This document shows positions 4,585 to 13,812 of a stretch of DNA of 27,117 nucleotides, piece after piece. Source of the DNA: a virus. Each line of letters opens with the position of its first letter. The stretch's first letter is position 1. The stretch is from IMG/VR virus record IMGVR_UViG_3300037584_004099, positions 1-27,117 of that record; one strand, written 5' to 3'. Position numbers and translations under genes: made by a program. Under the pieces are notes generated by a model that was given only the letters and a program-made list of their open reading frames with translations, was not told the origin of the DNA and searched no databases.

Positions 4585-7098
4585 TTATTTCGGCTTTAAA
4601 TCGTACTTGTCAGCCAGTATATTAACTATCACTTCGCCAAGTTTTCTTCCGTCTACTTTAAGTTCCACAGTCTTATTTCCAACACGTTCTTCCCCGGTGA
4701 CTGCGGGAACAACTGCATCGGCGAGTGCATTTAGGGCCGGCACACTAGCGCCATTTGATTGGACCATAACACTTATTATTTTGTCAAATACCGATTCTGC
4801 ACTTTCAAGCTGTGCTTTATCCATTTGGGATGTTACCTTAACTACTTGTGTTAGTTTTTCCATCGAATCGGCGGATACTGTAACATCCTCACTCAAACTA
4901 CCAATGGACTCGATAAACATTCCTATACCCGCAGCAGCAGCGCCAATACCAATTCCTATTAGGGCTATGGCACCACCCATAGCGTATAATATGCCAGTTG
5001 CTATGGTGCCAACTTTAGCAAACCCAGCCAAAGCCGGAATCAAGAAATATAACCCAACACCCAGTCCAACTAAACCAAGCCCAGCGGCTAGTAACTGCCC
5101 TGTGTCTAATTGATTAAAAGACTCGACAAAGTTACCCATACCTGTTGCTGCAAAATATATTCCGGCACCAATGAGCGCAACCGCTGCGCCTAAAGCTAGC
5201 ATCTTCATCGCAGCGCCACCGGCTGCATTACCGGCAGTGGTCGTAGCAGTAGCGTTCGTCGTCTGAGCCTTGGCAAGTCTCAGTTCGGAAACTTCCCGCT
5301 GGAGGTTGGCGACCATTGCTTCGAGGTCAGCCTTAGCGCCAAGACTTGCTGCTCCGGCTCCTGCGCCGTCTGCGGCGGTGTTAAGTTTGGTCGCTGCGGC
5401 TTTTTGCAGTGTCGTTAAGATTCCATCTTTTTGGATCCCCATGTTCACTCTCAATATAGTGTTGAAAAGAACCATCCCAGCAACTATAGTCTTAACAGCA
5501 CCAACAAGACCCAGAATAATTCCGCCGAAGATCGCAAACCCTTGTCCAACTGGTCCCGCCATAAGCTCGGCGACGGCAGCAAACTTATTAATAAGTGGAG
5601 CAAGCATTATGGAAATATTTTCAAGTGCAGCAGCTTGTTTTTGTTGTATCGTTGTCAGTTCTTCGGCACGTTCAGCGGCGGTCTTTTGAGCCCTTGCAGC
5701 AGCTTGGAAGTCTGCCTCACTTCCAAAGAACTTAGCAGCCATGCTAACGTCCATTCCCATCATTTCAGCAACGGCCTGCTTTTGACGCCTACCAAGTTGT
5801 TCGAAGTTCATTCCACTTTGAGCAAACTCGGCTCTTAATAGTTTGATTCTTTGCTCGTGGGTGGCTCCCAACATTTCAACAGAATTTATTTGCAGTCCTA
5901 ATTGAGCGTTGAGTTTTCCTGCCATATCAGCAGCACCCTCAAAAGTGTCAAATGCCTCTGCAAGATCAAAAGCTTCAGAAACATCAACACCAAGTTTTCT
6001 GGCTTGTTCAGCCAATGCGCTAAATTCTTTTTTAGCATCTTTACCAAACCTAGCGAGCTTAGGCCCTAGTTTTGTGAAATCTTCGATAAGCCTGCCAGTT
6101 GGCATACCAAGGCGTCCGGCTAGGGCATCAAATTCAGGCAAGGCGTCTCTAGCACCCTGCAAGCTCATTCCCATGCCCTTAGTTAACAGGTCAATTGCCT
6201 GTGCTGACACCCCTGAAGCAACACCCAGTCTTTCAAACTGGACAATTGTGTCTGCAACCGAAGCTTGTGTAGCTTGATCCGCTGCTAAAAAAGCTACGGA
6301 TGTAGCCCTGAGTTCACTTAGGGCTTTGGTTGCCTCCTCCGAGACAACACCAAATTCGGTGTTTCTTTGAACAAGCGACTCCATTTGTTCAACTTGCTCT
6401 TGTCCTGCGCCAGTGTTCTGTTGGAAGGCAATTCTGTTATCATCAAGCTTTATTCCCATCTGGGTTAAACCTGATATGGCTGAGCCTAACCCGTCAGAAA
6501 AGTTTAAAGTTTCGTATCCAGCCATATTCATAGCCTTGGACATTCCAGTAATAGCTATACCCGTAAAACGAGTATTATCTGATAAGGATCTTTGTATTTC
6601 AGCAAGTCTTGAAAGCGTTTGCTCCCGTTCAGCTAGAATCTTTGCGTTGTCTATATAAGCTGCGGCCGCTTCACGAAGGCCTTGGACCTCGCCAGCGCTA
6701 GCGGCGGTTGATTCTAAAATTCTCTCCTGAAGTTCGATCTGTTGCTCAATGAACTCTTTTCGCTGGTCATTACCCGTACCAATAGCGTCTGCTAATTCTC
6801 TCTGGAGAGCACCAAGAGACAATGCCGCAGCCTGAAACTGAAGGGCTCCACCTTCTAGGTTTTCAAAAGCGTTAACTTGATCACGCAAGACCCCAAGAAA
6901 TTCTCGGGACTGCTCAACGTCAAAGGCACCCTTTAAGTTATCGAGGGCGCCCTGTAGTTTGCTTACCTTCTCAGCAGCTTTTTCCGCAGATTCGCCCTGC
7001 TGGTCTAAAGACTCAGCGTTTTCCTTGTTGGATTCAGTGTTTTCCTCTGTAGCCTCAGATCGTTTTTTAATTTCTTCTGGATCGTCACCGTTTGCCAT
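4585..7098 (-). CDS. gp29: Tail tape measure protein
   Basis: An 837-aa protein starting at ATG 7098 behind AGGAG with a 6-nt spacer. It shows the usual tape-measure organisation. The N-terminus is highly charged and coiled coil (Glu/Lys/Gln heptads, about residues 8-170). A long helical Ala/Gln-rich middle runs to about 500. Hydrophobic stretches rich in Gly, Ala and Ile follow near 510-545, 630-655 and 668-728, which could insert in the host membrane during DNA ejection. The C-terminal ~100 residues are a small soluble domain. The protein sets tail length and is threaded inside the tube; it is longer than T4 gp29 (590 aa), implying a longer tail if the usual length relation holds. It lies after the probable tail chaperone pair and before the baseplate genes. 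No peptidoglycan hydrolase domain was recognised in it. Confidence 0.85.
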   Translation of the reverse strand: MANGDDPEEIKKRSEATEENTESNKENAESLDQQGESAEKAAEKVSKLQGALDNLKGAFDVEQSREFLGVLRDQVNAFENLEGGALQFQAAALSLGALQRELADAIGTGNDQRKEFIEQQIELQERILESTAASAGEVQGLREAAAAYIDNAKILAEREQTLSRLAEIQRSLSDNTRFTGIAITGMSKAMNMAGYETLNFSDGLGSAISGLTQMGIKLDDNRIAFQQNTGAGQEQVEQMESLVQRNTEFGVVSEEATKALSELRATSVAFLAADQATQASVADTIVQFERLGVASGVSAQAIDLLTKGMGMSLQGARDALPEFDALAGRLGMPTGRLIEDFTKLGPKLARFGKDAKKEFSALAEQARKLGVDVSEAFDLAEAFDTFEGAADMAGKLNAQLGLQINSVEMLGATHEQRIKLLRAEFAQSGMNFEQLGRRQKQAVAEMMGMDVSMAAKFFGSEADFQAAARAQKTAAERAEELTTIQQKQAAALENISIMLAPLINKFAAVAELMAGPVGQGFAIFGGIILGLVGAVKTIVAGMVLFNTILRVNMGIQKDGILTTLQKAAATKLNTAADGAGAGAASLGAKADLEAMVANLQREVSELRLAKAQTTNATATTTAGNAAGGAAMKMLALGAAVALIGAGIYFAATGMGNFVESFNQLDTGQLLAAGLGLVGLGVGLYFLIPALAGFAKVGTIATGILYAMGGAIALIGIGIGAAAAGIGMFIESIGSLSEDVTVSADSMEKLTQVVKVTSQMDKAQLESAESVFDKIISVMVQSNGASVPALNALADAVVPAVTGEERVGNKTVELKVDGRKLGEVIVNILADKYDLKPK

Positions 7099-7107
7099 CT
7101 AAAGCTC

Positions 7108-7446
7108 CTACGGATTCTTGATAGGCCAGTTAATCTTTGCCTCTCGTTCGAATCTCTTTATGGCAACGTCAAGTTTAGATTTTTGCTTGTAGGTCAACGG
7201 ATCATCAAGACCATATTTCTTGATGTAGTCCATATATCTTTTTTCATTTACCAAAGCATCAGTAAAGCGCTGGACTTCAATGCGGTTTCCTCGGACCTTG
7301 ACAGGGATGCGTCTCCCCTTGTACATTTTGGAGAGCAAATACTCAATCCAAGCAGCGAATACATGAAGTATGTTTTCATTAAGTTCTCCCTTGCGGGCAG
7401 CCCCCAAATCAAACACCATATCTTTCAATTGATCTTCAGTAAGCAC
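7108..7446 (-). CDS. Conserved small tail-module protein, GTG start
   Basis: A 112-aa protein whose start is a GTG at 7446, supported by a strong GAGGGG Shine-Dalgarno motif 5 nt upstream; no upstream ATG competes. The sequence is largely helical and basic, beginning MLTEDQLKDMVFDLGAARKG and ending with a Lys/Arg-rich helix (QKSKLDVAIKRFEREAKINW). It has no membrane segment or cysteine pair. It sits between the gp26-type / small chaperone-like genes and the tape measure, with its stop 9 nt from the tape-measure ATG, so it belongs to the tail operon. I have seen similar proteins next to tape measures in T4-related phages but do not know a function. A role in tape-measure handling or baseplate assembly is a guess from position. 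Confidence 0.72.
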   Translation of the reverse strand: MLTEDQLKDMVFDLGAARKGELNENILHVFAAWIEYLLSKMYKGRRIPVKVRGNRIEVQRFTDALVNEKRYMDYIKKYGLDDPLTYKQKSKLDVAIKRFEREAKINWPIKNP

Positions 7447-7512: not shown

Positions 7513-7776
7513 TTAGCGACGCCTTGATTTGGCTTTCCTCATAGCGTCTTCGTGCTGCTTGTTTTCTTTTTCTTTTTGTTGTACGAGGCGATTCAAAAAC
7601 CATCTTCGCAGCACAATGGGTAGGTTATAAGCCTCAAAAAAGCTCCAACCACCATAATATTTCAAGTTGAAAAACTCTTCATAAATGGCAACGTTATATT
7701 CGTCATTTAGGCCAAAGAAAGTCCGCAGTAAGCGGCACCTCCAGGGCCGCCTGATGTCCGCAGTTATCACACTCAA
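7513..7776 (-). CDS. Small tail-assembly chaperone-like frame without ATG; probably entered by +1 frameshift
   Basis: Open frame of 87 codons overlapping the 3' end of the gp26-like gene by 74 nt, in the +1 frame relative to it. The conserved-looking part is YYGGWSFFEAYNLPIVLRRW followed by a Lys/Glu/Arg-rich helix and SRRR. This Gly-Gly-Trp / Asn-Leu-Pro / Arg-Arg-Trp pattern resembles the small proteins that follow gp26-type genes in T4-related phages. No ATG exists upstream of the conserved core. The first possible starts are a TTG (7776) and a GTG (7770), neither with a ribosome binding site. Entry by frameshifting near CTT TGG C (7711-7717) would add 66 residues to the gp26-type protein, giving about 351 aa. 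That arrangement would match lambda G/GT-type chaperones. The coding frame is convincing; its start is not settled. Confidence 0.6.
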   Translation of the reverse strand: MSVITADIRRPWRCRLLRTFFGLNDEYNVAIYEEFFNLKYYGGWSFFEAYNLPIVLRRWFLNRLVQQKEKENKQHEDAMRKAKSRRR

Positions 7777-8569
7777 AGTTTGATGTCATATCAACATTAG
7801 GCGTAATCTTAACCATTAAGTTTCTGAGGTACCTTGAGTCCTTGGCTGGCATTGCGTTAATGAATTGCAATTTGTTTAATTTATCATCATTACCGTTAAC
7901 GGTGACAATCATCAAAGCCAGTTGTGTAGTTAAAGTATTCGACGCTTGATTTGTACGGTCCTTTCGCATAGTATTTTTTGCGATGGTGTTCTCATCCTTA
8001 CCATTTAGCATACGACACTCTACTACGACTTTTGACATTGGAAGTTCCACTCTAAATGTATTAGAATCAGTTATAGCGACTGCTTCCTCCTCAAGGGCGG
8101 AATTAAAATCTGTGTGTCCCAGTTCCTCAAGATTAAAAACATGATCACCCGTCTCATAGCAGGCTGGACATTTTACTTTTGTTTCATATTCTGGCCCGTA
8201 CCCTGTAATCCGAGCGGAAACAAGGATAGCATTCTTGTCTCCGACAAGCAAAGTATCAAGATTGATCTTTTTATCGACCAGAATGTTTTGTAGCATACGA
8301 TCGACAGCAATACCTTTTTTAAGCAAGGCTCGATCCGTTAGGATGTCCTCCTCTTTAGCTGTCATATACTTAATTTCAACTGTTTCCGCATTATGGAGCG
8401 GATGGCCGGGTGGATAGAATTTACCCTTACTTGGCAACTCCACAAACTCTGTGGGTAAAGCCCAATTAAACTGTGTATTTGCCGCAGATGCAGCAACAGC
8501 CGAAGATCCCTCGTCCTCTGGAGTTGGGAGTCCCTCGGCTGCGTTGAAGCGTCCTTCATTTCTGCTCAT
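7703..8569 (-). CDS. gp26: T4 gp26-family baseplate/tail assembly protein with zinc ribbon
   Basis: A 288-aa protein with an ATG at 8569 and AAAGG upstream. The first ~35 residues are low complexity (Ala/Glu/Ser). The core begins with PTEFVELPSKGKFYPPGHPL near 39-58, then the KYMTAKEEDILTD segment near 67-79 and GDKNAILVSARITGYG near 110-125. These are hallmarks of the family Pfam calls T4 baseplate (gp26/gp51 type). Two Cys pairs, CPAC at 134-137 and CDNC at 267-270, can form a zinc ribbon around an inserted ~130-residue domain. It is larger than T4 gp26 (208 aa). It lies directly after the tube gene and before the tape measure, where tail-assembly chaperones are usually encoded. Its end overlaps the next frame, so it may also be made as a frameshift-extended form. 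Baseplate/hub assembly factor is the conservative role. Confidence 0.78.
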   Translation of the reverse strand: MSRNEGRFNAAEGLPTPEDEGSSAVAASAANTQFNWALPTEFVELPSKGKFYPPGHPLHNAETVEIKYMTAKEEDILTDRALLKKGIAVDRMLQNILVDKKINLDTLLVGDKNAILVSARITGYGPEYETKVKCPACYETGDHVFNLEELGHTDFNSALEEEAVAITDSNTFRVELPMSKVVVECRMLNGKDENTIAKNTMRKDRTNQASNTLTTQLALMIVTVNGNDDKLNKLQFINAMPAKDSRYLRNLMVKITPNVDMTSNFECDNCGHQAALEVPLTADFLWPK

Positions 8570-8602: not shown

Positions 8603-9124
8603 CTAGTTGCTTTGTGTTTTCTCTGCCCAGTCAAACGTCAGTTCGATGGTTAACTCTAACATCTCATCAGAAGTATAGTCCAGACTACCACCATAATCTA
8701 CATTCGTTAAGAACGAGTTACGAAGAGTCCACTCCTCAATGATAAGCCCATCGCCATCTAACAATTGAAGCTTGGGATCACCACCAAGGGCGTCACTGAA
8801 GCCCTTTTTGGAAAGGGAGTTCTTTGTTAGTCCAGCGCTTTCATCCGGAAAGAAATATCCAGCGGCTCGGAAAGCATCATAAAGAACATCAGTTGGGTCA
8901 TCAACACCTCTCGATGGAGCCACAAGCGTAACACTAATCGGGTCCCAAGTAACACGACCTGGGAACTTGAAGTTATAATCGAAATAGCTATGCTCAACAA
9001 CCGAAACTGTAGCTTTTGGCATTGTTGCGGTCTTGACGTAGAATTCTTGAACGTCACCTACTTTAAGCTTGTACTTAAATCTTCTTTTAGGATCTACTCC
9101 TACCTGTGCCCAACTAATTGACAT
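8603..9124 (-). CDS. gp19: Tail tube protein, gp19-like
   Basis: A 173-aa protein starting at ATG 9124 after a GGGAG motif. Length is close to T4 gp19 (163 aa). The sequence is beta-rich with an N-terminal RRFKYKLKVGDVQEFYVKT strand pair, a central FKFPGRVTWDPISVTLV hairpin and a C-terminal TSDEMLELTIELTFDWAE strand. This is the pattern of Hcp-like tube proteins, and the central 'PGR..W.P...T' motif is common in T4-like tubes. It lies directly downstream of the sheath, in the classic sheath-tube pair. Hexameric rings of this protein form the inner tube through which DNA passes. No oddities seen. Confidence 0.88.
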   Translation of the reverse strand: MSISWAQVGVDPKRRFKYKLKVGDVQEFYVKTATMPKATVSVVEHSYFDYNFKFPGRVTWDPISVTLVAPSRGVDDPTDVLYDAFRAAGYFFPDESAGLTKNSLSKKGFSDALGGDPKLQLLDGDGLIIEEWTLRNSFLTNVDYGGSLDYTSDEMLELTIELTFDWAEKTQSN

Positions 9125-12413: not shown

Positions 12414-12431
12414 TAAACTCCTTTGAGTTTA
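12414..12431 (-). terminator. Hairpin at the end of the gp15-like gene (weak terminator candidate)
   Basis: Perfect 7-bp stem TAAACTC / GAGTTTA with a 4-nt loop that contains the TAA stop of the gp15-like gene. On the minus strand it is followed by GAGGTTTGTC rather than a run of U, so termination efficiency is doubtful. An RNA 3'-end or processing element is equally possible. Confidence 0.35.
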
Positions 12432-13310
12432 TGGTCGATACTTATCTTTTCTATTTGGGTTGAAGTCTGGGATGTCACCAAGTTCGGATCTCTCCCTGCT
12501 GAACCTTATTTTGGCTGGACTTTGACGCTTAACAGTAATCGGTGTGTTTTGATTATCTTTATCGCCAACAAGATAGCCTAAAACTTTTATTGACAATGCT
12601 GTTTTAAAAATTCTTTCAGTAACACCAAGTCCGTCTGCCTTAAAATCTATATTGTAGTTTGGGTCTAAAAAAGCCTCATATGAATTTCTTTCGTGCTCAA
12701 CAGTGAACACACTGGGGTCACCTGTATGAGTGTGAAACTTTCCAAGTATTTGATTCATTTGTGTTTGATATTCGGTTACGATATCTATCGTATATGTCAT
12801 CTCAACAAACGTTGGCATAGGGATCATCAACGTTTCGTAAACAATATTTTTGTTTTTCCCTGGGAAAGTTTGTCTATTCTTATTCATCCCACCTTCTGAT
12901 TTTCTTATTGCGTTGGCATTTGCAAAATTTGCTGTTTTTTCTTGTTGTACCACTCTTGCTATGGGGATAGAACCACCACGCTTATAATAGTCAAAAAATG
13001 GAGGTATATTTATTCCGTAAACTCCTTTGTTAGCTGGGTTTTGAACGGCAGATACTTTATGAATAGAAATTAGTGGGTACTTTAGTGTTCTACCGTTCGG
13101 CCTAAGATCAGGATCATTTTTTATTTGATAAGCTCTCTCTGGCAAAGAGTATATCACAGGGACTTTTTCCCAGCCCTCGTTCGTATCAACAAAAATATCT
13201 AATTTTTCGTCCACAAATTTATAAACAGCGTAATCTATATCCTCTATCTTTGATGGAGCAAGGGAATAGGAAGAACTTAATTGAGTGTTAGTAGGTGTTC
13301 TAATCGGCAT
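12429..13310 (-). CDS. gp15: Tail completion / sheath terminator protein, gp15-like
   Basis: A 293-aa protein. The best start is the ATG at 13310, which has GAGGA 7 nt upstream and overlaps the preceding stop by 11 nt. An in-frame TTG at 13343 would add 11 residues, but I see no ribosome binding site for it. The N-terminal domain has YKFVDEKLDIFVDTNEGWEK near residues 30-50. A central strand-rich part carries VYETLMIPMPTFVEMTYTID and TEYQTQMNQILGKF near 155-195. This recalls the gp15 family, whose hexamer caps the tail, ends the sheath and tube and joins the tail to the neck. T4 gp15 is 272 aa, so the size fits. Its place after gp13- and gp14-like genes and before the sheath supports the role. 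Homology was judged by eye and is moderate. Confidence 0.68.
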   Translation of the reverse strand: MPIRTPTNTQLSSSYSLAPSKIEDIDYAVYKFVDEKLDIFVDTNEGWEKVPVIYSLPERAYQIKNDPDLRPNGRTLKYPLISIHKVSAVQNPANKGVYGINIPPFFDYYKRGGSIPIARVVQQEKTANFANANAIRKSEGGMNKNRQTFPGKNKNIVYETLMIPMPTFVEMTYTIDIVTEYQTQMNQILGKFHTHTGDPSVFTVEHERNSYEAFLDPNYNIDFKADGLGVTERIFKTALSIKVLGYLVGDKDNQNTPITVKRQSPAKIRFSRERSELGDIPDFNPNRKDKYRP

Positions 13311-13812
13311 TAAATAGTCCTCGTCTGGCCTGTTTACCAACAAGAGTTACTTCCATTGAAGTCTCATCGTTTGTAAAAGCACTGTCTTGTCCAAAAATAT
13401 ATCTTGGCTCAAATAAATCCACAATCTCAAAAAGCATGTCATCATATTGCAAGAAGTCACCCAGTCGGGCAAACAGATCTTGATCTTCAACCAAACGACG
13501 TTTGTGCGTATGAACGTTAATATTATACAGGTTATCAAATCCATATTTTTCTTGCACTCGATCAGAGCCAACATACTCGACCAAGGCATAAACTCTAACT
13601 GGAGGGAGAAAGGTTTTCTTGATGGATTCTCCATACAAGGGATGAAAGTTAGATCTCTCGACATCTATTGGATAATACAATACCTGTTGTCCGACAATCT
13701 TTTCGACTATCTCATCATTTATTTGTTTAACAAAGTTTCTCTCCGCTTGCCCGACAAAAAGCGGGGGTGGAGGAGAGGCCGGTTGAGTCCATTTATTCTT
13801 TTGACTAGTCAT
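13300..13812 (-). CDS. gp14: Neck protein, gp14-like
   Basis: A 170-aa protein starting at ATG 13812, 4 nt from the gp13-like stop. After a Pro-rich N-terminus (about 1-18) comes a helix with QINDEIVEKIVGQQVLYYPI, then a pattern seen in gp14 relatives: a Y-Y-P motif, a short linker with LYGE, the VRVYALVEY strand, a KYGF segment and an HTHKRRLVED strand, ending with a YDDMLFEIVD hairpin. T4 gp14 (256 aa) joins gp13 on the portal after packaging to form the collar and tail attachment site. The protein here is shorter. Its stop is overlapped by the next gene, so the three neck genes are coupled. Alternative: another head-tail connector of the same operon position. Confidence 0.68.
   Translation of the reverse strand: MTSQKNKWTQPASPPPPLFVGQAERNFVKQINDEIVEKIVGQQVLYYPIDVERSNFHPLYGESIKKTFLPPVRVYALVEYVGSDRVQEKYGFDNLYNINVHTHKRRLVEDQDLFARLGDFLQYDDMLFEIVDLFEPRYIFGQDSAFTNDETSMEVTLVGKQARRGLFNAD

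Follow-up and report, generated by a model that had tools for sequence, protein, structure and literature searches.

How does a small reading frame with neither an ATG nor a ribosome binding site come to be translated? The question is raised by a frame of 87 codons on the minus strand of the window, by which we mean the whole 27,117-nucleotide stretch of marine phage DNA analysed here. The frame (positions 7513-7776, with its stop codon at 7513) has TTG as its first possible start and contains no ATG ahead of its conserved core. Neither the TTG (7776) nor the GTG (7770) was preceded by a Shine-Dalgarno-like sequence, as the initial annotation had reported; most other genes in the window begin at an ATG that follows a purine-rich ribosome binding site. 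The frame overlaps a gp26-like gene (7703-8569, minus strand, 288 aa), which itself begins with an ATG preceded by AAGG, and lies in the +1 frame relative to it. This frame relation had been correctly recognized in the initial annotation, which proposed a +1 programmed frameshift parallel to that producing lambda G/GT, and comparison with 74-76 non-redundant relatives strongly supported the proposal. Based on these comparisons of sequence, we consider it highly probable that the gp26-like gene encodes a tail assembly chaperone in two forms, the longer of which would be made by +1 slipping.

The gp26-like gene matched PF12322 (T4_baseplate) with E=1.8e-14 and 54.4 bits, above the curated cut-off of 24.5, and phrog_150 (baseplate hub) with E=1.8e-17; its product is the candidate short chaperone (TAC-N / G-like). 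On the minus strand it is preceded by a tail tube protein gene (8603-9124; phrog_4542 tail tube, E=6.5e-18) and followed by the extension (to 7513), a 112-aa gene (7108-7446) and an 837-aa tape measure candidate (4585-7098). The last of these was assigned by its position, its length and its presence at the same place in relatives, and had no family match in Pfam-type and phrog profile searches. Two overlapping frames are thus found between the tail tube and tape measure genes, as in known chaperone pairs. The initial annotation had, however, put the small frame immediately before the tape measure, a point that must be corrected because the 112-aa gene intervenes. This gene has a GTG start behind GAGGGG and is 84-94% identical in the relatives L002, L004 and L005; it is without a family match and is more strongly conserved than gp26 itself. 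The window holds a second overlap of frames, between 12429-13343 and 13300-13812 (both minus strand). The first possible start of the downstream frame is again TTG, and its real start may be an internal ATG.

A scan of viral contigs recovered 80 relatives of the window locus, to which we added annotated phages (Microcystis phage Mel-JY01, the Flavobacterium immuto phages, Bacillus phage SP-15, LIS04, GXN1 and jumbo phages) and uncultured genomes. Non-redundant sets of 74 loci were used for re-pairing at the slip site and of 76 loci for starts and stops. The small domain followed in the +1 frame in all but a few related loci. A scan of genomes yielded 8 loci, all from assembled metagenome bins; the gene end was readable in 7 of the 8, and all 7 had the T-run site together with the +1 frame. 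A scan with a jumbo-phage protein as the query returned no loci.

Only the part of the small frame that lies 3' of the slip site was conserved, a stretch of 66 codons (7713-7516) in which leucine, proline and arginine residues are invariant among the relatives. The description of the whole frame as conserved therefore stood for these codons but failed for the 21 upstream of them. The conserved part corresponds to a T-like extension (7513-7713, minus strand, 66 codons plus stop) with three predicted helices. Starting one codon ahead of the site, the +1 frame of the 76 loci was free of stops throughout the scored stretch, with many stops located just upstream. Between the window and L002, its closest relative, synonymous codon changes outnumbered non-synonymous ones by 29 to 6 in the +1 frame beyond the gp26 stop. 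In the stretch preceding the site the corresponding numbers were 1 and 9 in the +1 frame, and 3 and 8 in frame 0. The +1 coding signal therefore begins at the site. Taken together, these counts indicate that purifying selection acts on the extension in the +1 frame, and that the small frame is conserved beyond chance.

The proposed slip site, TTT CTT TGG CCT (7709-7720, minus strand), comprises codons 284-287 of the gp26-like gene. All 74 non-redundant relatives ended the gene with TTT TTT TGG CCT or a variant of it: TTT TTT T was found in 58 loci, TTT CTT T, the form seen in the window, in 7, and other variants in the rest. A conserved slip site is thus followed by a conserved extension frame. 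Re-pairing in the +1 frame by a P-site Phe or Leu tRNA was possible in every one of the 74 loci; the P-site candidates in the window are UUU_C (codon 284) and CUU_U (codon 285). The A site had a sense codon in every locus, TGG in 63 of the 74 and in the window itself. With a usage of 8.2 per 1000 window codons, TGG is neither a stop nor strikingly rare, a point that speaks against slipping. The initial annotation had pointed to CTT TGG C (7717-7711), which is indeed present, and to the CUU to UUU slip known from prfB; such a slip is possible in the window, but represents a minority form, since most relatives have TTT TTT TGG. What is general is therefore a slip of one base by a Phe (or Leu) tRNA in the P site. 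The spacing of slip site and stop varied among the relatives, and a shift at the stop of gp26 itself (AAA TGA C) was discarded as the general site for this reason.

No stimulatory element common to the +1 loci emerged. A Shine-Dalgarno-like GGAGG (7738-7742, minus strand) lies ~20 nt upstream of the slip site in the window, where it may simply be Glu-Val codons. It was found at -22 in 23 of 71 loci, with no such motif in 36, and so characterizes the clade of the window rather than the whole family. We accordingly rejected it as a stimulator of +1 slipping. In 35 of 60 cyanophage loci, by comparison, a GAGGG-type motif was located at -15; this motif is better placed, there for a -1 shift. Conserved RNA structure 3' of the site was not strong either: mean z values were about -0.7 to -0.8 at the +1 loci and -0.2 in control stretches, a difference that we did not find convincing as evidence of a stimulatory structure.

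Alignment of the homologues bore out the initial proposal in that the frame relation, the slip site and the lack of independent starts were all conserved, together with selection in the +1 frame. That ribosomes slip, how often and at which codon they do so, and that the products act as chaperones, is what we infer, as follows. Most ribosomes would terminate at the TGA (7703-7705, minus strand) to give the short form of 288 aa. A minority, on reaching TTT CTT TGG close to the 3' end of the gene, would shift forward by one base, with either the P-site tRNA-Leu moving from CUU to UUU or tRNA-Phe moving from UUU to UUC, and would thereby bypass the stop. Continued reading in the +1 frame would yield a long form of 351 aa, the length originally predicted, bearing the 66-residue helical extension. 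By analogy with lambda G/GT, the two forms would together coat the tape measure protein and bring in subunits of the tail tube; they would be absent from the finished virion.

The small frame might instead be a separate gene, translated from an internal start (TTG, GTG or the CTG that follows GGAGG) or through termination-reinitiation where gp26 stops. L002 has an ATG at -8 behind GGAGG in the small frame, which is the kind of homologue that the initial annotation had held to be decisive against frameshifting. This start was not conserved: the window has CTG at the same place, and the near relatives L004, L006 and L008 have a +1 stop there. Some start with an SD-like sequence was present in 6 of 74 loci, L002 among them, an ATG occurs 25 nt downstream of the slip site in some, and public records enter separate or shorter coding sequences. 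When we searched from the last +1 stop to 31 nt past the slip site, however, 34 of the 76 loci had no ATG, GTG or TTG able to start the small frame, and 14 had none of seven start-like codons (ATG, GTG, TTG, CTG, ATT, ATC, ATA). A +1 stop lay within 30 nt upstream of the site in 39 of the 76. Moreover, the site is directly followed in the +1 frame by an invariant leucine, and the -1 lineage described below carries a canonical -1 heptamer that would be superfluous for internal initiation. We therefore regard a separate gene as very unlikely.

Two other routes into the same frame appear more improbable still. Phage Mu uses a -2 shift for its G/GT pair (PMC5009743), and TTT TTT TGG would permit -2 re-pairing in 61 of the 74 loci; the remaining 13, the window included, lack a matching -2 pairing, whereas +1 pairing is available in all 74, leaving little room for a -2 slip. 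RNA polymerase slippage on the run of seven consecutive T found in most relatives, which would generate mixed mRNAs, has the least to recommend it, as a C breaks the run in the window (TTTCTTTGG) and in six other non-redundant loci that nonetheless keep the +1 frame. Somewhat more weight, albeit still little, falls on the idea that the +1 products are real but serve in hub or baseplate assembly instead of coating the tape measure. T4 gp26 and gp51 have been listed as hub assembly chaperones (PMC3004832), and members of PF12322 are annotated as baseplate hub proteins. The position of the gene between the tail tube gene and the tape measure candidate argues against such a role, as does the 2022 assignment of T4-like TAC genes as tail assembly chaperones, reported in papers that cite Vladimirov et al.

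Whereas slipping into the +1 frame is the rule among the relatives of the window, the same domain was found in the -1 frame, behind A_AAT_TTC, in L038, L040 and L069. L038 and L069 are nested inside the +1 clade in the tree, indicating that the fusion is kept while the direction of slipping changes within one gene family. The domain also lies at -1 in the jumbo phages RAS14 and XacN1, which have T_TTT_TTT, and behind T_TTT_TTC in L088, Aeromonas phage 65.2 and phage SRB7757. All 81 of the 81 cyanophage-type loci, S-RIM8 included, end the homologous gene with T_TTT_TTC, one codon and a stop, with the domain at -1.

These observations lead us to propose, with slightly more confidence than doubt, a class of +1 site in which a P-site codon for Phe or Leu (UUU_U, UUU_C or CUU_U) precedes a sense codon, usually UGG, and at which no stop codon, close Shine-Dalgarno sequence or strong structure was found. 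A large phage lineage would have conserved this site, with a -1 heptamer taking its place in a single nested branch that retains the fusion. The production of short and long chaperones from one gene by slippage is known in tailed phages; it is the slip site that is unusual here. A literature search, with subscription journals mostly outside it, returned no description of this +1 site, and both the UUU_UUU_UGG / CUU_UGG sense-codon site of the lineage and its local switch to -1 appear to be undescribed. The many natural variants of a bacterial sense-codon +1 site allow the rules of +1 slipping to be tested against evolution, in a gene family that has altered the direction of slipping and retained the fused product.

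In lambda, too, the region between tail tube and tape measure encodes a short form and a frameshift-extended one (gpG/gpGT), a likeness of design. Lambda shifts by -1, at a different heptamer, in contrast to the +1 shift proposed here. The +1 frameshift of prfB (CUU_UGA_C) shares the CUU to UUU slip that is possible in the window, but prfB has a stop in the A site in place of the sense codon UGG, and the locus described here has no Shine-Dalgarno sequence close to the site and no autoregulation. Influenza PA-X, made by a +1 shift at UCC_UUU_CGU (PMC3498833), resembles our site in the slip of a Phe tRNA from UUU to UUC while the A site has a sense codon, and differs from it in employing a eukaryotic ribosome and in gene and function. 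A +1 tail chaperone shift at TTT-CGC has been proposed for the HF1-group and HSTV-2 haloviruses (PMC7230728; PMC5009743). The first HF1 chaperone did not match PF12322 or the gp26 profile and was rejected as a homologue. In the second HF1 chaperone frame (L187:19257-20040), MTPFQRQIF resembles the cyanophage extension motif MPWEKEIYV, by eye alone.

The closest parallel by family is with T4. Vladimirov, Gautam and Davidson 2022 (doi 10.1016/j.virol.2021.11.003) are reported to have identified T4-like TAC genes, including the two-gene form of T4; papers citing this work describe some T4-like phages as having a short copy alongside a long, fused one, and refer to poly-T -1 slip signals. As far as these sources go, the design is the same short-plus-long one, and our own searches place the genes in the same family, PF12322. 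A 2016 review lists T4 as the exception to G-T frameshifting (PMC5009743). T4 gp26 and gp51 both matched PF12322, gp51 through residues 1-201, and the gp26 and gp51 profiles matched each other (E=4e-17). The cyanophage -1 domain matched the C-terminus of gp51 (E=5e-8); its match to the window-type domain was weaker (E=1.7e-5). Direct profile comparison of the window-type extension with gp51 was not significant, and was rejected as a direct match; the link runs solely through the cyanophage form. To judge by these matches, gp51 is a gp26-type domain joined to the same C-terminal domain, a fusion encoded as one plain gene, and the short and long forms of T4 are therefore two genes, in contrast to the single gene with a +1 site described here. 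The published oddity that the initial 200 residues of T4 gp51 are missing from cyanophage gp51 (PMC3037559) fits the reading of the cyanophage piece as an extension of gp26.

We modelled gp26 and the extension as separate chains with AlphaFold. The gp26 model (mean pLDDT 88.0) had the HK97 tail assembly chaperone 2ob9 as its best PDB match, which was weak and not significant (E=0.99, probability 0.30), and matched many predicted viral proteins of baseplate-hub type. The extension model formed three helices (mean pLDDT 87.6). At the level of sequence, the window extension scored 15.3 bits against DUF6760 (PF20546), below the curated cut-off of 27, while the extensions of 14 of 71 relatives matched this family at E<=0.01, the best with 3.1e-5.

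Our results also bear on annotation, as public phage records omit the extension, shorten it or enter it as a separate gene. It is entered as a short coding sequence from an internal start in the records of SP-15 (L086:2809-2928), immuto 3-5A (L084:3836-3946) and S-RIM8 (L092:2732-2869).
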